Source: Paenibacillus polymyxa
GTDB lineage: Bacteria; Bacillota; Bacilli; Paenibacillales; Paenibacillaceae
DNA: 64,000 bases
Direction: 5' to 3'
Assembly: GCF_001719045.1 (NCBI RefSeq)
Contig: NZ_CP015423.1
Span: 5,083,501-5,147,500 of the forward strand
In this document: positions 30,101 to 40,967 of the stretch, one piece after another
How the letters are laid out: each line of letters opens with the position of its first letter
Position numbering within the stretch: position 1 is the stretch's first letter
The notes under the pieces: generated by a model
The model's database searches: none
The model's input: the letters and a program-made list of their open reading frames with translations, nothing else
Told to the model about the DNA's origin: nothing
Translations under genes and position numbers: made by a program

Positions 30101-30281
30101 GGTGCGAATGTGAAGCTCACATAAAAAACCTGGATCCTTCGCACCTCGAAATTTGTCGAAATGGTTTTGAATTAGCTTTCTTCGTTAGAAATCAATAATC
30201 GATTCAAGCTTTTTTGACATCGTTTTTTTCGAAAATGCATGGAATTAATATCATTAGGGTATTAAATCCTTCATTTTCGCT
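30101..30281 (+). promoter_or_regulatory. CRISPR leader 1
   Basis: 181 nt from a nested palindrome (GGTGCGAATGTGA...TCGCACC, 30101-30145) to the first repeat element. Closely similar to the leader of array 3. TTGACA at 30214-30219 is a probable -35 element for the pre-crRNA. It ends CATTTTCGCT. Confidence 0.82.
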
Positions 30282-31402
30282 GTCGCACTCTATGTCGCAC
30301 TCTGTATGGAGTGCGTGGATTGAAATTATCGAGAAAGGAGGACAAGGAAGATGCTAGAAAGGGTCGCACTCTGTATGGAGTGCGTGGATTGAAATCTCGG
30401 TGCTGACGCGTCCATAACCAGCAGCACGGTCGCACTCTGTATGGAGTGCGTGGATTGAAATGCTCAGGCTCGAAATGGACGGTTCAGGCGTCCCGCAGGT
30501 CGCACTCTGTATGGAGTGCGTGGATTGAAATGTCCATAGACCTAGCACCTACAGCAAAAATTCCTGTCGTCGCACTCTATATGAGTGCGTGGATTGAAAT
30601 GCTTCGGAATCGGTCAAACGCCAGTGTGGGCCAAGCCGTCGCACTCTATATGAGTGCGTGGATTGAAATTCATTAACCACGGTCGATTGATCGTAACACC
30701 TAAACGTCGCACTCTATATGAGTGCGTGGATTGAAATTCTCCATGCAACGGCCTGATAGTGACGTGCTGGAGTCGCACTCTATATGAGTGCGTGGATTGA
30801 AATGATCTGGTTGTCCTCGACATCCGCGGTGGATATAGAGTCGCACTCTATATGAGTGCGTGGATTGAAATCATTCTTAATTGTGTTAACTCTAAAAACG
30901 TCTCCGTCGCACTCTATATGAGTGCGTGGATTGAAATTAAGTATGGATGGCGAAATCTAAACGGGACGAGTAGGGGTCGCACTCTGTATGGAGTGCGTGG
31001 ATTGAAATTGCATTAGATGAGTGATCACGTTCGGCCTTACTATAGTCGCACTCTGTATGGAGTGCGTGGATTGAAATAGACGTAAGCCACCAAGCAAAGA
31101 AACAATTCTCCCAGGGTCGCACTCTGTATGGAGTGTGTGGATTGAAATTATTACGTTCGTGAGTTTGGTGATTCTGTCGCTCTGGTCGCACTCTGTATGG
31201 GGTGCGTGGATTGAAATGACACAAGAATTCGACAGACAGGAAGGAATTTCCGTCGCACTCTGTATGGAGTGCGTGGATTGAAATTCGAACATGAACACGC
31301 GTGGTATCTCCCCGTCGACGTCGCACTCTGTATAGAGTGAGTGGATTGAAATATGATGAATGGAGGACGTCCTCAAGAAAGAAATAGGCGCACTCCATGT
31401 GA
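30282..31402 (+). CRISPR. CRISPR array 1 (type I-C-like repeats), 16 full repeats
   Basis: Repeats begin GTCGCACTC and end GTGCGTGGATTGAAAT. A 12-nt stub GTCGCACTCTAT (30282-30293) directly joins the first full repeat at 30294. Repeats 1-4 and 11-16 are 33 nt with GTATGGAGTG in the middle; repeats 5-10 (30569-30937) are 32 nt with ATATGAGTG. Spacers are 33-38 nt. Repeats 13, 14 and 16 carry mutations, and a 16-nt degenerate repeat of the array-3 type closes the array (31387-31402). The transcript should run left to right. No cas genes lie beside it. Confidence 0.97.
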
Positions 31403-31717
31403 CAATTGACGATGCGGCAGGATTCACGGTCAGTCGTTACGGCATATGGTTTTGTTTGACTGGTATGCTTTGCATAGTTCTCAGGGCTTCAGCCGCAGAA
31501 GGAAGAAAATAAAATCGAAGTGAAACGATCTTTGTGATATGTACAATGCTCGCAATGGGCGCGATGAGAAGCAATGATGCGGGGGAATGAGGCAAGAATA
31601 TGAGGACGTACAGGGGATAAAATGCGGAAGAACCACCGAAGGATGAAAAATCCAGTGCGGTGGTTCTTTTTTTTCACTCGTCTTGTATGCCATCATTATA
31701 GGGGGAGGGGATGAAGG
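31403..31717 (+). other. Gap between array 1 and the MocR gene
   Basis: 315 nt with no credible gene. The only element seen is the terminator at 31626-31674, which would end array 1 transcripts before the regulator gene. Confidence 0.5.
31626..31674 (+). terminator. Terminator downstream of array 1
   Basis: GAAGAACCACC...GGTGGTTC followed by eight Ts. Confidence 0.85.
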
Positions 31718-33202
31718 ATGTTCCAGGATTTCAAGCTCGTAAGTGACCGGCCGGTCTCGATACAAGTAAAAGAATACGTCAATCGTTTAATTATAAAAGG
31801 GGCGCTTCAGGCGGATCAGAAGCTACCTTCCACACGAGAAATGAGCGTTCTGCTTAAGGTGAGCCGCAATACAGTCATTGCAGCCTATGAAGGCTTGGAG
31901 GATGACGGGTTTACGTATGCGATTCCCGGAAAGGGTAGTTATGTGGCCGCCATGGTGGGCCAGTCGGCCGTAGATAACGGAGGATCTGACGGCTCTGCCA
32001 CTTGGGAGATCGACTGGAAGGCAAGAATGAACGAGTATGCTGTATTGGCTGTTGATCTGGATATGATGAAGCAGGGCATTCGTGCCCAAAAGGGAACTAT
32101 CTCGTTCACAAGCATCGCTCCGGATGAGCAGCTGTTTGATCTGGGGGATGTAAGGCGAGCTTTTATGGATCGGATGGCAATCGAAGGGCAGGTGCTGCTC
32201 AACTACGGCTATGCTAAGGGCTACAAGCCGCTGATTGATTACCTGATGCATTATATGGAGAACAAGGGCGTCGATATAATTGGCAAGGATATGCTGATTA
32301 CAGGCGGGTTTACAGAAGGCTTTGACATTGTGCTGTCGGCTTTACGCCCTTCTGCACGCCGCGGAGCGGCAATTTGTGAAAATCCGACCCATCACACAGC
32401 GATCAAAAATTTGAAGTTGCAAGGATTTGAGATTACCGGCATTCCGATGGAGTGTGACGGTATTGATGTAGAGCGGCTAGAGGAGGTATTGCAGACCAAT
32501 AGCTTCGATTTGGCTTATTTGACTCCTTCCTATCACAATCCGACAGGCATCGTCATGTCGCCAGCAAAGCGCAGCGCTGTTATGAAATTAATGATGAGCT
32601 ATCAGATTCCGGTGATCGAGGATGGATTCAATGAGGAGCTGCGTTACTCGGGAGCGCATATTGCGCCCTTAATAGCGACAGCAGGCCAAGGGAACGGAGT
32701 AATCTATATTGGCAGCTTCTCCAAGGTGCTGTTCCCTGGCTTGCGTGTAGGCTGGGTGCTTGGAGACCGAGCACTGATTGACACTCTGGAAAGCATTAAG
32801 CGTGCGCGCACCATTCATACCTCAACAATCGATCAATCGATTTTATACCAATATATGCTTAACGGAAATTTCGATAAACATGTAAAAAAAGCACGTACAG
32901 AGTATAAGCGCAAATATGAGCTGACAAAGACATGCTGTGAAGCACATCTTCCTGAGGCGCAGGTGTCTGGTGACGGGGGCTTGCATTTGTTCCTTACCTT
33001 CCCGACAGGCGTAAATACACGCCAGCTGCTAGAAGCTTGCACAGAACAGGGTGTCATTTTTACACCGGGAGACAAGTTTTTTATTCAAGAAGGCGAAGGG
33101 ACGAATACATTGCGGCTTGGGTTTTCACGAGTAACAGATGAAAATATCGAACGGGGTATTCAAATAATCGGTAAACAGACGCGTAAATTTCTTAAGGCAT
33201 AA
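31718..33202 (+). CDS. MocR-family (GntR HTH plus aminotransferase) regulator
   Basis: 494 residues. Residues 10-75 are a GntR winged helix (STREMSVLLKVSRNTVIAAYEGLEDDGF). The rest is a fold-type I aminotransferase-like domain with the PLP-binding Lys in IGSFSKVLFPGLRVGWVLG. MocR proteins use PLP or an amino acid-PLP adduct as signal and usually control adjacent genes. Here D-Ala-D-Ala ligase and aminotransferase genes follow on the same strand, the likely targets. GGGGGAGGGG lies upstream of ATG 31718. Confidence 0.88.
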   Translation: MFQDFKLVSDRPVSIQVKEYVNRLIIKGALQADQKLPSTREMSVLLKVSRNTVIAAYEGLEDDGFTYAIPGKGSYVAAMVGQSAVDNGGSDGSATWEIDWKARMNEYAVLAVDLDMMKQGIRAQKGTISFTSIAPDEQLFDLGDVRRAFMDRMAIEGQVLLNYGYAKGYKPLIDYLMHYMENKGVDIIGKDMLITGGFTEGFDIVLSALRPSARRGAAICENPTHHTAIKNLKLQGFEITGIPMECDGIDVERLEEVLQTNSFDLAYLTPSYHNPTGIVMSPAKRSAVMKLMMSYQIPVIEDGFNEELRYSGAHIAPLIATAGQGNGVIYIGSFSKVLFPGLRVGWVLGDRALIDTLESIKRARTIHTSTIDQSILYQYMLNGNFDKHVKKARTEYKRKYELTKTCCEAHLPEAQVSGDGGLHLFLTFPTGVNTRQLLEACTEQGVIFTPGDKFFIQEGEGTNTLRLGFSRVTDENIERGIQIIGKQTRKFLKA

Positions 33203-33307
33203 GGATTAAGAAAAGAGCTATAGAGAAGGAATATTGTTTCGAAGAAGCAATAGCGATCGGATGAACATCCGTAGCCACATAAAGATTTTGAAGAAAAATG
33301 AGGTGTC

Positions 33308-34240
33308 ATGATGAAAATTGGCGTTATTATGGGCGGTATTTCCTCTGAGCGTGAGATTTCTCTGCAGACAGGTCAAGAGATGATCAATCATTTGGATCGC
33401 AGCCGTTATGAAGTGGTTCCAATGGTGATCGAGCAGCGAGCGGATTTAATCGCGCAGGTCCAGCAGGCAGGCATTGATATCGCGCTGTTGGCACTGCATG
33501 GTCAGTATGGCGAGGACGGCACGGTGCAGGGAGCGCTGGAGACACTGGGCATTCCCTACACAGGCAGCGGTGTCCTGGCAAGCAGCTTATGCATGAATAA
33601 GCAGTTGTCCAAGATGCTGTTGAAGGCAGCGGGTGTGCATACGCCTTCAGGCCTTTACTGGCAGGGGATGGACGATTATGATCCGCAGGTGGTGGAGCAT
33701 TTGGGCTACCCGGTTATTGTGAAGCCGAATATGGGGGGATCCAGCATCGGCATCCAGCTTGTACAAAATGAGAAGGAACTGCTGCCGGCTGTTCAGGAGG
33801 CTTGCAGCTTGGATCAAGCGATCTTGATTGAGCCCTATTATGAAGGGACGGAGATTACCTGCTCCATCGTAGATGGCGAGGTATTACCGATTATTAGCAT
33901 TAGCTCCGCTCGTTCGAAGTGGTTCGACTACAAAGCAAAATATGAGGTCGGCGGCGCTGAGGAGAAGGTGATCGAGCTTCCCCCCGTTATTGAGCAGCGT
34001 GTGCGCGAGGCGGCACTGTCCAGCTACCGGCTGCTGCAATGCAAGGTCTATGCAAGGATCGATATGATTTTGTGTCAGGATAGACCTTACGTGCTGGAAG
34101 TGAACACATTACCGGGAATGACCGCCAACAGCCTGCTTCCGAAGAGTGCGGCAGCTGCGGGTATAACCTTTACACAGCTACTCGACCAAATTATTGCCAG
34201 CTCGCTCCATGAGCGGAAACAGGAATGGAGGATGGCGTAA
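33308..34240 (+). CDS. ddl: D-alanine--D-alanine ligase, ATP-grasp
   Basis: 310 residues, the short DdlB type. EREISLQTG near the N-terminus, KPNMGGSSIG (ATP-grasp loop), the omega-loop YKAKYEVGG and EVNTLPGMT at the metal site are all present. It joins two D-Ala for peptidoglycan. ATG 33308 and 33311 are both possible after GAGGTG. The gene is probably a second copy beside the cell-wall ddl, as it sits in an operon with a MocR regulator and an aminotransferase; whether it uses D-Ala or a related substrate cannot be told. Its stop is one base before the next start. Confidence 0.87.
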   Translation: MMKIGVIMGGISSEREISLQTGQEMINHLDRSRYEVVPMVIEQRADLIAQVQQAGIDIALLALHGQYGEDGTVQGALETLGIPYTGSGVLASSLCMNKQLSKMLLKAAGVHTPSGLYWQGMDDYDPQVVEHLGYPVIVKPNMGGSSIGIQLVQNEKELLPAVQEACSLDQAILIEPYYEGTEITCSIVDGEVLPIISISSARSKWFDYKAKYEVGGAEEKVIELPPVIEQRVREAALSSYRLLQCKVYARIDMILCQDRPYVLEVNTLPGMTANSLLPKSAAAAGITFTQLLDQIIASSLHERKQEWRMA

Positions 34241-34241
34241 T

Positions 34242-35426
34242 ATGTTTAGTGAAATGGGGACAGGGCGGTTTGTATCCTCGCGCGTACGGGATATTCGCCC
34301 ATCGGGAATTCGCGCTTTTTTTGATCTGAATGCAGCAGGCGGAGGTACAATCGCCCTTGGGGTCGGAGAGCCTGATTTCGTTACACCGGACAAGGTACGT
34401 GAAGCTTGCATTCAGGCACTGCGTGAAGGACAGACGAAATATACTTCGAATGCCGGCTTGATGGAGCTGCGGGAGGAGATCTCTGCTTATTTTTCCGGCA
34501 GCTTTGCGCTTTCCTATGACCCTGAGCAGGAAATGATTGTGACGGTGGGGAGCAGTGAAGCCGTCGACCTGGCGCTGCGAGCAGTGATCGATCCGGGTGA
34601 CGAGGTGCTGATTCCAGCGCCAAGCTATATTGCCTATGAACCCATTACCCATCTGCATGGCGGTAAAATTGTAGAGGTGGCGGCTACGGCAGAGGAGCAA
34701 TTCAAGCTGACCCCGCAAGCGCTGCAAGCGGCAATTACACCTCATTCAAAGGTTTTAATGATCAATTATCCCTGTAATCCAACTGGAACAGTTATGACGG
34801 AGCAGGATTGGCTGCCGATTACAGAGCTCATTATCAAACATAATCTGGTCGTCATTTCGGATGAAGTGTATGCCGAACTGACTTACGGGAGAAAGCATGT
34901 CAGTATCGCCTCCTTGCCGGGCATGAAGGAGCGTACGATTGTCATCAGTGGTTTTTCCAAAGCATTTGCGATGACAGGCTGGCGGGTAGGCTATGCGTGC
35001 GGTCCGCATGAGCTGATTGCCGGCATGCTGAAAATCCACCAGTACACAGCCATGTGTGCGCCCACCATTGCACAGATTGCCGCGCTGGAATCATTGCGCC
35101 ATGGCTTGGCTGCCAAGGATGAGATGATGGCGAGCTACAATGAACGTCGCAAGCTGTTTGTGGCTGGCTTGAATGCAATCGGGCTTGCTTGTCATGAGCC
35201 TGAGGGGGCTTTCTATGCCTTCCCTTCAATTACTTCTACTGGCATGTCATCTGAGCAGTTTGCACTTCGTATGCTGAAGGAAGCGAAGGTGGCGGTCGTA
35301 CCGGGACATGTATTCGGATCAGGCGGAGAGGGCTTTATTCGCTGCTCATATGCAGCCTCGCTCGTCGATTTGGAGAAGGCGCTGAAACGGATGGGAAGGT
35401 TTATGCAGGTAATGCAGCCGGTATGA
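34242..35426 (+). CDS. PLP-dependent aminotransferase, class I/II
   Basis: 394 residues from ATG 34242, chosen for GGAGG 10 nt upstream and the 1-nt gap to ddl. The sequence opens SSRVRDIRPSGIRAFFDLN, has the family's GVGEPDF and NYPCNPTG motifs and the PLP Lys in VISGFSKAFAMTGWRVGYA. It is close to the PatA/AspB class, which transaminates several L-amino acids. With ddl and MocR it may shift amino-acid pools feeding wall synthesis; that is inference. Confidence 0.88.
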   Translation: MFSEMGTGRFVSSRVRDIRPSGIRAFFDLNAAGGGTIALGVGEPDFVTPDKVREACIQALREGQTKYTSNAGLMELREEISAYFSGSFALSYDPEQEMIVTVGSSEAVDLALRAVIDPGDEVLIPAPSYIAYEPITHLHGGKIVEVAATAEEQFKLTPQALQAAITPHSKVLMINYPCNPTGTVMTEQDWLPITELIIKHNLVVISDEVYAELTYGRKHVSIASLPGMKERTIVISGFSKAFAMTGWRVGYACGPHELIAGMLKIHQYTAMCAPTIAQIAALESLRHGLAAKDEMMASYNERRKLFVAGLNAIGLACHEPEGAFYAFPSITSTGMSSEQFALRMLKEAKVAVVPGHVFGSGGEGFIRCSYAASLVDLEKALKRMGRFMQVMQPV

Positions 35427-35480
35427 TGAACAGGGTTAATAACTCAACTTTTGCAGAACGTCTTTATGAAATATTTTACA

Positions 35481-35517
35481 ATACCTTTATGTTTTTTGAA
35501 AACATAAAGGTATTTTT
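35481..35517 (+). terminator. Terminator of the MocR-ddl-aminotransferase unit
   Basis: ATACCTTTATGTTTT-TTG-AAAACATAAAGGTAT followed by TTTT. Confidence 0.87.
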
Positions 35518-35543
35518 CTGATCAATGTAGTGGATATTTCTGG

Positions 35544-35684
35544 ATGCATTTACCCAAAGCCAGAACGTTTAGCTTTGGAGTTAACTGGTGGAACCTTGCT
35601 TTTAAATGCGCTATCGATGAATTAAATATATTCGAATGTGCGCTTCCTCCTTCACAGGTGGCAGAACTGGCAGAGGTGAAATAA
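35544..35684 (+). pseudogene. C-terminal remnant of an unknown protein
   Basis: A 46-codon frame from ATG 35544, open further upstream to about 35517, reads MHLPKARTFSFGVNWWNLAF and ends LPPSQVAELAEVK. The composition looks like real protein, with paired Trp and an amphipathic end, yet it has no ribosome site and follows a terminator directly. It is likely the 3' remnant of a deleted gene beside array 2. No family recognised. Confidence 0.35.
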
Positions 35685-35728
35685 GTCCAGGCAGGAATTT
35701 GTTGCTAAGCCAAAAAGCGAGTCTGTCC

Positions 35729-35909
35729 AGGTGCGAATGTGAAGCTCACATGAATTCTCCGAGAGTTTCGCACCTCAGATTTTGTCGAATTATATCGAAT
35801 GTGAACAAATTTTAAACGATCGCAAGAGGATGAGGTAATATTAGATGCGTTTTTGCCAAAATAACGCTAGAATGTTACTTAAATAGGGGGCATTTGACCC
35901 ATTATCGCT
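35729..35909 (+). promoter_or_regulatory. CRISPR leader 2
   Basis: Exactly 181 nt from the palindrome (GGTGCGAATGTGA...TTTCGCACC, 35729-35773) to the first repeat, as in leaders 1 and 3, although the middle part has diverged. Ends ATTATCGCT. Confidence 0.8.
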
Positions 35910-36943
35910 GTCGCACTCTATATGAGTGCGTGGATTGAAATTTTGTTCCTCGCTCAGCATGCGGATCAGGTGTATGGTCGCACTCTATATGAGTGCGTGG
36001 ATTGAAATTGAGTCGTCCATTGTAAGAATGCATGTTGAGTATCCGTCGCACTCTATATGAGTGCGTGGATTGAAATTTTGCAGTACTTAGGAGTCCAAAT
36101 GTAAAAGGAAGTCGCACTCTATATGAGTGCGTGGATTGAAATTGATATAGATGATTGGTCGCATGTATGATATCTCGTCGCACTCTATATGAGTGCGTGG
36201 ATTGAAATACTGAGCAACCACTTCAATTGCATGTTCCTCTTCTGGTCGCACTCTATATGAGTGCGTGGATTGAAATATTTTAAAGTTGATCCAATGGCTA
36301 TGATAAAAATGTCGCACTCTATATGAGTGCGTGGATTGAAATAACACTACAATCACACGAGCAAAAGTCTTGTTCGCGTCGCACTCTATATGAGTGCGTG
36401 GATTGAAATATATTGCGTTTTACAGTAGAAATTATCTTGCATGCCAGTCGCACTCTATATGAGTGCGTGGATTGAAATATCGACATAGAGGTGGACGATT
36501 ACCATATCCTCGGTCGCACTCTATATGAGTGCGTGGATTGAAATTTCAAGGGCTATCGTACACGGCTTGAGGACGCAGTTTCGTCGCACTCTATATGAGT
36601 GCGTGGATTGAAATTGTGCTGTCCTGGCGCACCCTTAACTCGCTTACCTGTCGCACTCTATATGAGTGCGTGGATTGAAATCAATACCGAAATGATGGGG
36701 GGTGGAATTATTAAAGTCGCACTCTATATGAGTGCGTGGATTGAAATGGATCAGGAGCAATGGGCATAGCATCCGGTTCAGTCGCACTCTATATGAGTGC
36801 GTGGATTGAAATGCGTATCCAGACGGTTTATGCTCGGTGTAGCAAAGAGTCGCACTCTATATGAGTGCGTGGATTGAAATATCAAATGACACGCCAGCAC
36901 TGGCAGGGCATCCCGCAGTCGCACTCTATATGAGTGCGTGGAT
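35910..36943 (+). CRISPR. CRISPR array 2 (type I-C-like), 15 repeats plus a truncated one
   Basis: Fifteen 32-nt repeats with ATATGAGTG in the centre and no repeat mutations noticed, from 35910 to 36880, and a sixteenth (36918-36943) that stops after GTGCGTGGAT and lacks TTGAAAT. Spacers are 33-36 nt. The uniform repeats suggest a younger or better maintained array than array 1. It abuts decayed cas1 sequence directly. Confidence 0.97.
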
Positions 36944-37582
36944 CATGACGGAGCAGCCGCCACTTGGTCGTACGAGTGGAGAGCGCCTCTTTATCCGAAA
37001 TCATGAAGAGGTCCGTGAAGTGAGGAGCTGGAGATTTTACGCGGTTTGGAGGGGACGGCGGCAGTTCAGTACAATTCCGTGTGGGATGATCTGATCTTGC
37101 AGCAAAAAGATGATTTTTATTTCCATGGACGCCATAAGCGCCCGCCGTTAGATAACGTGAATGCCCTATTATCTTTTGCCTATACACTGTTGTCCAACGA
37201 TATGAAATCCGCACTAGAAGCTGTCGGTCTATGCTTATGTAGGTTTTCTGCATAGAAGATCGTCCAGGGCGAGCCTCCTTGGCACTGGATGTGATGGAAG
37301 AGCTTAGAGGAGTATATCCCGACCGTTTTGTTCTTACATTATTAACAAAAAATGATTCATGGCAAAGGATTTTACAAAAAAGAAAACGAGGCTGCTATGA
37401 TGGACGATGATACGAGGAAAATCGTATTGAAGGCATGGCAAGAACGGAAACAGGAAAAAATGATTCATCCTTATTTGAATGAGAAAATGTCTTGGGGGCT
37501 TGTGTCCTATTGACAGGCTTTGCTCTTAGCTAGATATATTCGTGGAGATCTGGACGAGTACCCTCCATTTTTGTGGAAGTAG
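36944..37582 (+). pseudogene. cas1: cas1 (type I-C) pseudogene, 5' truncated
   Basis: Cas1 signatures appear in shifting frames. 37022 on: EELEILRGLEGTAAVQY, then LILQQKDDFYFHGR and KRPPLDNVNALLSFAYTLL. After a one-base loss near 37230 comes DAYVGFLHR; after a one-base gain near 37255 comes [16 protein letters not shown]; after a slip in the A-run at 37346-37352 comes [19 protein letters not shown], a TGA at 37511, and [18 protein letters not shown] to TAG 37582. The N-terminal half is missing. Not functional. Spacer integration by this locus must be lost. Confidence 0.9.
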
Positions 37583-37583
37583 G

Positions 37584-37835
37584 TTGATCTTGTTAATACT
37601 AATTACGTATGATGTAAGTACATTAGATAGAGAAGGCAGAAAAAGACTGGAAAAGGTTGTGAAAAGGTGCGTAGACCACGGACAAAGGGTGTAAAATTCC
37701 GTGTTTGAGTGCATTTTGGATTCGACCCAGTTCCGCCGTTTAAAATATGAATTAGAAGAATTGATAGACAAAAAAGAAGACAGCCTGCGTTTCTACAACT
37801 TTGGAGATAGCTATAAAAAGAAAGTAGAGCAATAG
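37584..37835 (+). pseudogene. cas2: cas2 (type I-C) pseudogene with one nonsense codon
   Basis: The frame reads [30 protein letters not shown], then TAA at 37692-37694 in place of an expected Gln codon (CAA to TAA), then NSVFECILDSTQFRRLKYEL and RFYNFGDSYKKKVEQ to TAG. The start codon would be TTG 37584; no ATG is present at the expected place. Apart from the nonsense change the gene is full length, so decay is recent. It lies in the normal I-C order cas1-cas2-leader-array with array 3. Confidence 0.9.
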
Positions 37836-37879
37836 GGGCTAAGGAAGCTTACGATATGGAAAGCCCACTGATTTTATAA

Positions 37880-38060
37880 GGTGCGAATGTGAAGCTCACA
37901 TAAAAACCCCGGGTCCTTCGCACCTCGAAATTTGTCGAAAAGTATTAAAATTGCTATTTAACCGTAAAAGTCAATAGTTGATCCAAGCTTATTTGACATC
38001 AGTTTTTGCGACAATGTGTAGAATTGATATCATAAGGGTATCAATTACTGCATTTTCGCT
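37880..38060 (+). promoter_or_regulatory. CRISPR leader 3
   Basis: 181 nt with the same palindrome (37880-37924) and the same CATTTTCGCT end as leader 1. TTGACAT is conserved in both. Directly downstream of the cas2 remnant, the normal place of a type I-C array. Confidence 0.82.
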
Positions 38061-38895
38061 GTCGCACTCCATGTGAGTGCGTGGATTGAAATACTTGACA
38101 GGCCAAGCAGTAGGGGCGCGTGTTCGAGTCGCACTCCATGTGAGTGCGTGGATTGAAATAAGACGCAACAAAGCTAAACGCTATTGAACAGGAAGTCGCA
38201 CTCCATGTGAGTGCGTGGATTGAAATATTTTTCTTGTGCATCGTTTTATTTCTCCTTGATGTCGCACTCCATGTGAGTGCGTGGATTGAAATGGATCCGT
38301 TATCGACGCCAACGGCGCATGGCTGACGTCGCACTCCATGTGAGTGCGTGGATTGAAATTTCCAGCAGGGCATCTTTAATGCCACTAATACTGTCGCACT
38401 CCATGTGAGTGCGTGGATTGAAATATATAAGACCTCCTAGTAGAAAAGCCCACCTTTTAGTCGCACTCCATGTGAGTGCGTGGATTGAAATTGTATAGAC
38501 CGTGTGCGGTGCGAACACATAGTAAGGGTCGCACTCCATGTGAGTGCGTGGATTGAAATCTTGGATGATCGCATTTACAGCCATACGGCGAACGCGCGTC
38601 GCACTCCATGTGAGTGCGTGGATTGAAATAATATCTTAGGCAATTCCTCGCACAATTCAGGACAGGTCGCACTCCATGTGAGTGCGTGGATTGAAATCGC
38701 AAAATGAAAACGCGAGAGCAACAAGCAAAAATCGTCGCACTCCATGTGAGTGCGTGGATTGAAATGTCATGAGTCTAGCCGGGGTTGTCATAAGTGTAAG
38801 TCGCACTCTGTATGGAGTGCGTGGATTGATATTATCTTGCCGTTACTATTTGTGTAGCAGAGGTGCTATGTCGCATTCCATGTGAGTGCGTGGAT
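38061..38895 (+). CRISPR. CRISPR array 3 (type I-C-like), 12 repeats plus a truncated one
   Basis: Repeats 1-11 are 32 nt with CCATGTGAGTG in the centre (38061-38765). Repeat 12 (38800-38832) is the 33-nt GTATGGAGTG type seen in array 1, with one change near its end. Repeat 13 (38870-38895) is mutated and stops after GTGCGTGGAT. One spacer (about 38227-38260), read on the other strand, looks like a ribosome site and gene start (AAGGAG...ATG). This is the array natively linked to cas1-cas2. Confidence 0.97.
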
Positions 38896-39521: not shown

Positions 39522-39572
39522 AGAGGGTGATTTTTAAAATAATGGAATTTTTATGTGAAGGGTGGTTATGAC

Positions 39573-40967
39573 TTGAAGCATACACCTACGATTTCAGCGG
39601 AGTTTGAGGATTATCTAAAACAAAATGATATGACGTTGAGTCAATTTGCCGAATATTCAGGGGTTCATCAAAGAACACTTAGTCATTGGATTACTCAGCA
39701 TCGTCCTGTTTCCATACAGCAGCTAGACCGAATCACTGTGGCTATGGATTTGCCAGAAGGCTATTTTTACGATCTATACATAGAAAATTACATCATTGAC
39801 CTTTCCCCGAATTTTAGGCGAATCGAGCCATTATTGTATCGTTGTGCGGAGCTGGACAAGCTGGATGCAATCCGTCGAATGGTTGGACATATCATGGATA
39901 ATCCGCTGTATGCGACTAGGCTATTTGATGTTGCAGAAGCATTATTTGAACAGGGACGACATGCTGCTGCGCTGCCTCTCTATGAGAATGTCGCAGAAGT
40001 GGAGAAATATCAGCATTCTGAACGCTTGGCCACCTGCCAATATCGTATATTCTCGATTCAAGTTGGAGACGACCAAAGCCGTAATCTCAAGGCAGCAACG
40101 CTATTTGAACCCTTCGTGGAACGTCTGGATGAAATAGACCAGCTTGATGCGCTAAAAGATTTGGCGAATGTGTATCGATCTTTGCGCTTGTGGGACAGGC
40201 TTGATGTGACCGCTCGAAAAATGAGAGATAAAGCGGAAATCCAATATACATTAGAGCATCAGCAGAAAAAGCGAAAGTCTGCGGAAATTGAAAAGAGGCT
40301 GAGCCGTCCATTGTTTGTGTATATCACCTATGCTGATTTATTGTGTGCAAGTGTCTGTGAAGCCCAAGGTGATTATCAACAAGCTCTACAATATACATAC
40401 GCCTACGTTAATTTAGATTGGGTCAAAGAGACAGATGAGGATACTCTGCATTGGATTAAACTATTTCAAAATTGGGCGCTATGTAATACTTACGTTAATA
40501 AATTATTATCCGGAGATATAAGTGTGCTTCCGGATTATGTTGAATATATTAGTGTATCATCAAACACCACTAAAGAAATGGTTACTCAACTATTGAATAT
40601 TATGATGGCGGCTAACCGATTTCAAGTTGATGTGGATGAAGTACTTAAGCAGTTCGAAACGGAGATCGATTCGATCACCCAACAGCAACCATCTGCTGAT
40701 ATGTACACTCATCGAGTGGTTCCAGAACAATTAACGCGTTTTAAATATGAACTGGCTAAATACTACTTAAATAAAGGTAATTATTCATATGGATTTAAAA
40801 ATTTACTAGACGTTTTATCTAAATCATTAGTCATTAACAAAGAAGCCTTTTTCATTAGCTGCATAAGATTATTTGAGCAGTTCAAACAATTTGCAGACTT
40901 TAGATTGTGTACAAAGTATGAAAGTTTAGTTAGAGAAGGGCGAAAAGAAAGATTATTTTATTATTAA
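39573..40967 (+). CDS. HTH plus TPR-like regulator, possible RRNPP/AloR type
   Basis: 464 residues from TTG 39573 (AAGGGTGG about 7 nt upstream; GTG 39555 overlaps that site). Residues 8-65 are a Cro/C1-type HTH (MTLSQFAEYSGVHQRTLSHWI). The remaining ~390 residues are helical with TPR-like spacing (ALFEQGRHAAALPLYENV, AQGDYQQALQYTYAYV). This is the plan of RRNPP peptide-sensing regulators; P. polymyxa has many such AloR proteins paired with small secreted peptides. A clear peptide gene is not seen downstream, only a weak 50-codon frame. Confidence 0.7.
   Translation: MKHTPTISAEFEDYLKQNDMTLSQFAEYSGVHQRTLSHWITQHRPVSIQQLDRITVAMDLPEGYFYDLYIENYIIDLSPNFRRIEPLLYRCAELDKLDAIRRMVGHIMDNPLYATRLFDVAEALFEQGRHAAALPLYENVAEVEKYQHSERLATCQYRIFSIQVGDDQSRNLKAATLFEPFVERLDEIDQLDALKDLANVYRSLRLWDRLDVTARKMRDKAEIQYTLEHQQKKRKSAEIEKRLSRPLFVYITYADLLCASVCEAQGDYQQALQYTYAYVNLDWVKETDEDTLHWIKLFQNWALCNTYVNKLLSGDISVLPDYVEYISVSSNTTKEMVTQLLNIMMAANRFQVDVDEVLKQFETEIDSITQQQPSADMYTHRVVPEQLTRFKYELAKYYLNKGNYSYGFKNLLDVLSKSLVINKEAFFISCIRLFEQFKQFADFRLCTKYESLVREGRKERLFYY

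Follow-up and report, generated by a model that had tools for sequence, protein, structure and literature searches.

RESULTS

Three type I-C arrays and a broken cas1-cas2 pair

The window (the whole 64,000-nt stretch of Paenibacillus polymyxa DNA analysed here) belongs to a complete single-contig genome of 5,756,938 bases (5.76 Mb; G000 in our genome set; 100% complete by tool estimate), and it carries the remains of cas1 and cas2 together with three type I-C CRISPR arrays, A, B and C, with 16, 15 and 12 spacers (43 in total). An earlier note on this DNA had placed the broken genes between two arrays; the count is three, as listed here.

30101..30281, + strand: leader of array A; 81% identity to the array C leader region over 198 bp
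30282..30293, + strand: 12-nt truncated repeat, read directly; scar at the leader end of array A
30294..31404, + strand: array A; 16 full repeats and 16 spacers, last repeat degenerate
31579..35714, + strand: transaminase / D-Ala-D-Ala ligase block; downstream border of the operon side in relatives, 94% identical in Paenibacillus sp. BJ-4 (G045) and P. brasilensis KACC 13842 (G007)
35730..35909, + strand: leader of array B; hairpin-type start common to A and C, 88% identity to leader B of G007 and G045
35910..36943, + strand: array B; 15 full repeats and one truncated, 15 spacers
35942..35976, + strand: spacer B1, the most recent in array B; matches the cell's own rlmD perfectly, with TTC on the 5' side
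36944..37582, + strand: cas1 relic; 5'-truncated, six frame changes, in-frame TGA
37590..37879, + strand: cas2 relic, taken to the point where the gene stops in relatives; it has a premature stop and, close to its end, a frame change
37880..38060, + strand: leader of array C, from comparison with other leaders and the leader tree
38061..38895, + strand: array C; 12 repeats and a truncated last one, 12 spacers
38093..38127, + strand: spacer C1, the most recent in array C; matches one of the cell's own genes perfectly, a regulator of the AsnC/Lrp family, with TTC on the 5' side

The repeat pattern has 40 matches genome-wide, every one inside the window, and the repeats and leader are of the types that stand beside Cas8c-bearing operons in relatives, which places them in the I-C lineage. 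Two repeat types make array A a mosaic, with runs of 4, 6 and 6; the type of its first and last runs is that of the operon-side arrays in G061, G060, G063 and P. terrae PIC167 (G062), and its trailer is identical in kind to that of the array upstream of the transaminase genes in G007 and G045. Most leader matches to relatives stop 12 bp before the first full repeat of array A, and in the leader tree leader A clusters with leader A of G027 (96/88) and of G019 (92/96). The truncated final repeat of array B directly adjoins the cas1 fragment; last repeats truncated at GTGGAT also occur without cas1 behind them, in the last array of G063, in the window's own array C and in the slot-C array of G061 (slot C being the place just upstream of the last array, before a helix-turn-helix (HTH)/TPR gene, which holds the relic in the window). 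Far from the arrays, the third genome match of the array B/C stretch is a lone degenerate CRISPR repeat (G000:C1:254982-255033, about 4983-5034 of L162), perhaps the last trace of a lost solo array.

Two neighbours of the arrays deserve mention in their own right. The HTH_3 and TPR regulator gene at 39555-40967 has many paralogues in its own and related genomes, with a make-up that is presumably like that of peptide-sensing regulators. The transaminase block, 94% identical to G045 and G007 between flanks of only 84-88% and absent from G027 (97% in the flank), has likely undergone recombination or transfer.

State of the cas1-cas2 relic

Stop-free pieces of the relic match Pfam Cas_Cas1 at 37019-37228 (E 1.6e-21) and 37243-37362 (E 1.2e-8) and CRISPR_Cas2 at 37590-37691 (E 5e-7) and 37695-37832 (E 2e-11); piece 37349-37510 gave E 0.012 against Cas_Cas1, below the family cut-off, and piece 37514-37579 (22 aa) had no Pfam match. 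The I-C Cas1 model TIGR03640 matched three pieces, all between model positions 153 and 340 of 340, and therefore about the first 40-45% of cas1 is gone. In one alignment of the relic with seven operons, we counted six frame changes within cas1 (37008 to 37352); a further one lies close to where cas1 meets cas2, and another towards the end of cas2. In addition, cas1 contains an in-frame TGA at 37511-37513 and cas2 a premature stop at 37692-37694. Intact Cas1 and Cas2, as a functional I-C system requires, were not found here (best TIGR03640 score 95 bits against a cut-off of 385, broken frames).

The earlier note had read 36944-37835 as type I-C cas1 and cas2 in decay with the front of cas1 lost, and this reading is upheld by the Pfam and TIGR03640 matches. 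The repeats and leaders are of I-C type, and at the DNA level the relic is 85-88% identical to its seven nearest operons. Its description of cas1 (at least three shifts and a TGA) was right about the TGA but undercounted the shifts. The single CAA-to-TAA change that it gave for cas2 exists as the stop at 37692-37694, but it is not the only lesion, and cas2 of relatives extends about 15 codons beyond the end given there, up to the leader. We agree that adaptation from this locus is dead. With cas1 shifted and missing its front, cas2 stopped and the effector not found, neither adaptation nor interference by type I-C would be expected here; the arrays may still be transcribed.

The decay appears to be fairly recent, as had also been proposed, because differences from operon copies lie mostly at third codon positions: in cas1, their share is 0.71-0.80 for the relic against four operons and 0.74-0.97 for the operon pairs compared, and in cas2, 0.66-0.75 for the relic and 0.72-0.93 for operon pairs. 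The identity of the relic is a mosaic between two operon clades. Separately, a faecal record filed as bacteriophage (MT836695.1, 8133-8772) matches the relic at window 37086-37721 with 67%, and represents either a cas1-cas2 pair on a phage or a misfiled bacterial contig.

No type I-C operon elsewhere in the genome

A profile search of the whole genome for Cas8c (Csd1), which is present in 28 of 75 genus genomes (our own counted among the 75), gave 0 matches. When the 8.7 kb operon DNA of G007 was compared with the 5.76 Mb genome, only the relic and two leaders matched, and cas3, cas5, cas7 and cas4 were not found by this comparison. The I-C Cas1 model matched only the three pieces of the relic, and the Cas3 core model gave five matches, none over the cut-off; the latter model also gave matches in 14 of 14 control genomes, above the cut-off in 6. 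The I-C effector genes, noted earlier as absent, were thus not found genome-wide by these searches, and the Cas1, Cas8c and Cas3 models together with the I-C operon DNA detected no cas genes other than the relic.

The operon slot in relatives

G007 and G045 share one arrangement: an SDR gene, leader A, array A, the operon, one or more arrays and the transaminase block, followed downstream by leader B, array B, leader C, array C and the HTH/TPR gene. The order operon, array, transaminase genes also occurs in the more distant P. massiliensis (G017) and G023 (transaminase block 79% identical; positions in both hand-converted to reversed stretches). In the window, array A leads into its trailer and the transaminase block: the place that the operon takes in relatives is vacant and bounded by arrays. 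Seven relatives (G061, G060, G063, G007, G045, G013 and P. farraposensis UY79, G008) have an open cas1 of 343 codons and a cas2 that stops at the leader start, so that cas2 ends can be recognised upstream of leaders; operons were called intact in relatives when the Cas8c, Cas1 and Cas2 frames are open. The G062 record has a broken cas1 frame, and its contig ends at the operon. The genomes closest by flank, G027 (97%) and G019 (90%), keep leader A and one repeat and are without Cas8c, with leader A and its repeat joined to a slot-C trailer in G019; both have lost more than the window genome.

The earlier view of an operon decaying in place is not supported by this comparison: relatives carry their operon between array A and the transaminase genes, a slot other than that of the relic, and the relic's own slot holds cas1 or cas2 scraps in four relatives (G061, G060, G007 and G045) that have open Cas8c, Cas1 and Cas2 frames elsewhere in the genome. 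In slot C, G061 has a fragment of cas1 and G060 has pieces of cas2; G007 shows a 25-nt cas2 match (E 0.009) plus about 17 nt seen by eye, and G045 a cas2 tail seen by eye.

cas sequence at leaders

The fetched stretches contain 53 arrays with two or more repeats; a leader hairpin lies within 260 bp of 41 of them and is lacking at 12, and 8 of the 41 follow an operon. cas1 or cas2 sequence abuts the leader in 7 of 33 leader arrays unattached to an operon (six by alignment, G007 only at E 0.009, and the G045 cas2 tail by eye), which suggests that the duplicated unit can include cas gene ends; at least 4 of the 12 hairpin-less arrays have a leader by alignment and no cas sequence, and with these the ratio becomes 7/37. 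All five identified slot-C arrays (window, G061, G060, G007 and G045) belong to the seven.

Similar arrangements were seen at other places. In G074 (L071, C30:266000-285999), nine cas2 5' fragments lie within about 11 kb (about C30:273-284 kb), seven of them preceded by the last 60 or so bases of cas1 and eight followed by a leader, most with an array; in these eight, an internal cas2 gap begins at an identical left edge, and its right edges differ by no more than 18 bases. We read this stretch as amplified arrays whose repeated unit includes cas scraps. The solo arrays at G007:C1:2714537-2714991 and G008:C23:5665-6102, with the same cas1 and cas2 scraps and nearly identical leaders, represent another slot with a shared cas relic.

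In the cas1 tree, the slot-C fragment of G061 groups in one clade with the window relic, G013, G007, G045 and G008 (94/83), apart from the operon of G061 itself (91/89), and in the leader tree, window leader C joins the slot-C leaders of G007 and G045 (86/78), with that of G061 in the same open fork. Several observations count against a second cas1-cas2 copy in slot C: the fork uniting the relic and the G061 fragment is open (82/73), the slot-C leader of G060 lies in the other half of the leader tree, and a slot-C array is present in only four of the seven operon-bearing relatives with a readable downstream side, the other three (G063, G013 and G008) having no separate slot-C array with cas remains. 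The G061 fragment and the relic differ at 12, 10 and 18 sites at codon positions 1, 2 and 3, as would be expected after long decay; one common frame change near 37021 and two common substitutions link the two weakly. The shared array-cas1 junction of the window and G061 was rejected as proof of one ancient truncation, as 200 of 20,000 shuffles reached it.

The newest spacers of arrays B and C match the cell's own chromosome

TTC is the type I-C protospacer motif, and it stands 5' of all three protospacers that were located, two in the cell's own chromosome and one on a plasmid. The self-matching spacers (2 of 43) are each the leader-proximal first in their array. Spacer B1 matches at C1:3769572 (contig coordinates) in a gene assigned to TIGR00479 (rlmD; 562 bits against a cut-off of 183.55), and spacer C1 at C1:4115067 in a gene with AsnC-type HTH and Lrp/AsnC domains; with a perfect match outside the array and the proper motif, both qualify as self-targeting by sequence. 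Array A has no self-match, and the other spacers gave none in the own genome at E 0.001. If two self-spacers were placed at random among 43, the chance of both taking one of the three first places would be (3/43)(2/42), about 0.003. A prophage is an unlikely self-target, both sites lying in genes that resemble ordinary chromosomal ones. The rlmD site of B1 was found in 10 of 11 genomes searched (G062 gave no match) and is identical over 35/35 positions in G000, G013 and G045; among these genomes TTC together with a perfect match occurs only in G000, and acquisition of B1 from one of the relatives searched was discarded, as CTC precedes the site in G013 and G045. B1 may have come from a same-species donor instead of the cell itself.

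Spacer B14 (36813-36848) provides the one clean plasmid match, 36/36 in a Zot-domain gene of pPpR313, a P. polymyxa plasmid of 12.9 kb; TTC precedes this protospacer as well. Spacer A5 (30601-30637) is identical over 36 nt to a spacer in the operon-side array of G061, although with another repeat type at its flanks, and spacer A15 is 91% and 89% similar to spacers in two other solo arrays; dating the arrays by shared spacers was abandoned, common spacers being too few. Comparison of the arrays with phage records returned 2 and 3 records, all unannotated faecal ones and none a clean spacer match, and patterns from 4 of the 43 spacers had 0 matches in viral contigs.

DISCUSSION

Reconstruction of the events

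The relic is best read as a second, array-borne cas1-cas2 copy, with the operon proper lost separately. Our model combines this second copy, removal of the operon by array recombination and escape from autoimmunity, and for the three taken jointly we estimate a probability of roughly 0.55. According to this model, a module of cas1, cas2, leader and array would have come to the slot beside the HTH/TPR gene, and the relic would be its remains. The operon proper would have stood where relatives have it, with array A on one side and the transaminase genes on the other, and would then have been lost, probably by recombination between the flanking direct-repeat arrays, leaving a mosaic array A with a truncated first repeat; both this repeat and the 4/6/6 runs fit such a recombination. 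Arrays B and C would have taken up their last spacers from the cell's own rlmD and regulator genes beside TTC, sites at which an active effector would have cleaved the chromosome. Selection for escape from this autoimmunity probably favoured cells without the effector genes, with the decay of cas1 and cas2 following afterwards. The lesions, the negative genome-wide searches for the rest of the operon, the slot positions in relatives and the self-matches with TTC are observed; we infer the deletion mechanism, the order of events and the selection, and consider autoimmunity a likely driver of the loss.

The strong third-position bias of the relic would be unexpected for a copy that was dead before the lineages split and in this respect counts against a second copy. 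The second-copy reading thus needs a copy that was kept functional or was converted by the operon genes; together with the mosaic identity, the bias leads us to read the relic as a second copy that was functional, or overwritten from the operon, until recently.

The same bias could also mean that the relic was the lineage's only operon, which came to lie between arrays B and C after an earlier rearrangement. A single deletion, starting where array B ends and reaching into cas1, would then have taken away cas3, cas5, cas8c, cas7, cas4 and the front of cas1, with point decay next. The simplicity of such an event and the truncated repeat of array B directly at the cas1 fragment speak for this course of events; however, the operon of relatives lies in another slot, four of these relatives hold cas scraps at the place of the relic in addition to their operon, and GTGGAT-truncated repeats without cas1 behind them indicate that the truncation need not be a deletion scar, so that we consider a sole operon unlikely. 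Reading errors are a hardly conceivable source of the lesions: although single-base shifts are typical of some read types, the genome is one contig and 100% complete, the genes neighbouring the relic have open frames while several lesions are confined to less than 0.9 kb, and neither the missing 5' part of cas1 nor effector genes that were found nowhere would be explained by artefacts with genes intact in the cell.

As regards the autoimmune driver, the main rival is that the self-spacers were acquired when interference was already dead. Under this reversed order, adaptation genes would have worked on and self-spacers would have entered without killing, in agreement with their first positions in both arrays, with the recent decay of cas1 and cas2, and with TTC motifs that suggest a still intact, motif-selecting adaptation. 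A long period of free acquisition should, however, have given more than one self-match per array, and cas4, which is needed for motif choice in type I-C, is gone together with the effector genes; we regard the reversed order as possible but less than probable. Use of the arrays by another effector type, such as a type III-B Cmr module, is improbable: both I-C and III-B loci are reported for P. polymyxa A18 (PMC6465253), but no Cas1 other than the relic's and no Cas3 over the cut-off were detected in the present genome.

Comparison with known systems

The locus resembles type I-C CRISPR-Cas (Cas1c TIGR03640; Cas8c/Csd1 TIGR01863) in its repeats and leader, in a cas1-cas2 pair directly before the leader, in the TTC beside three located protospacers and in the 85-88% DNA identity of the relic to seven operons; it differs in that no effector gene or Cas4 was found in the genome and that cas1 and cas2 are broken. 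Within the species, P. polymyxa CACC1094 is described with cas1, cas2, cas5, csd1 and csd2 and four arrays with 39 spacers, according to the accessible part of that report (PMC13298791). Orphan arrays left behind when cas genes are lost offer a possible parallel, as the window has three arrays, their repeats mostly well kept, in a genome where no I-C operon was found; in contrast to such arrays, one window array keeps a recognisable cas1-cas2 pair at its leader, and relatives show stages of the erosion.

Stern and co-workers (2010) reportedly described an enrichment of self-spacers next to the leader where a genome's cas genes are damaged. In the part of a review available to us (PMC6990116), self-targeting spacers make up 0.4% in one survey, and the escape routes from autoimmunity include deletion of a cas gene or the whole locus. 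The chromosomal self-spacers beside TTC and the lost operon are similar to such an escape; unlike the cases covered in that part (PMC6990116), the present one is natural, the self-spacers are still the first in two arrays and we infer the causal order. Several arrays with related repeats are likewise known beside a single Cas locus, with duplication named as one source in the accessible text of PMC12814883, whereas here 7 of 33 operon-free leader arrays carry cas1 or cas2 abutting the leader, a point of difference from that text as far as it was available. In openly available full text, we recognised no report on this locus or on cas-tailed leader modules in Paenibacillus.

Implications

The loss event at this locus is of a known kind and unusually legible. 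As a tentative generalisation, to which we give somewhat less than even odds, the type I-C operon of this Paenibacillus group, lying between direct-repeat arrays, may be an excisable cassette, which self-spacers would cause to be removed in one step with a hybrid array left behind, and arrays may multiply together with the 3' ends of cas1-cas2 and the leader. A broken cas1-cas2 pair beside an array is not by itself proof of a decaying operon, as it can be a scrap of array duplication; if the generalisation is true, such a pair would often be the birth mark of a duplicated array instead of a dying operon. The stages of loss in the window genome, G027 and G019, together with the operon-bearing relatives, make the order of events testable by strain sequencing. 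The locus would be a natural record of an immune system soon after its death: two arrays hold the cell's own genes as their latest memory, and the machinery that would use it is gone.
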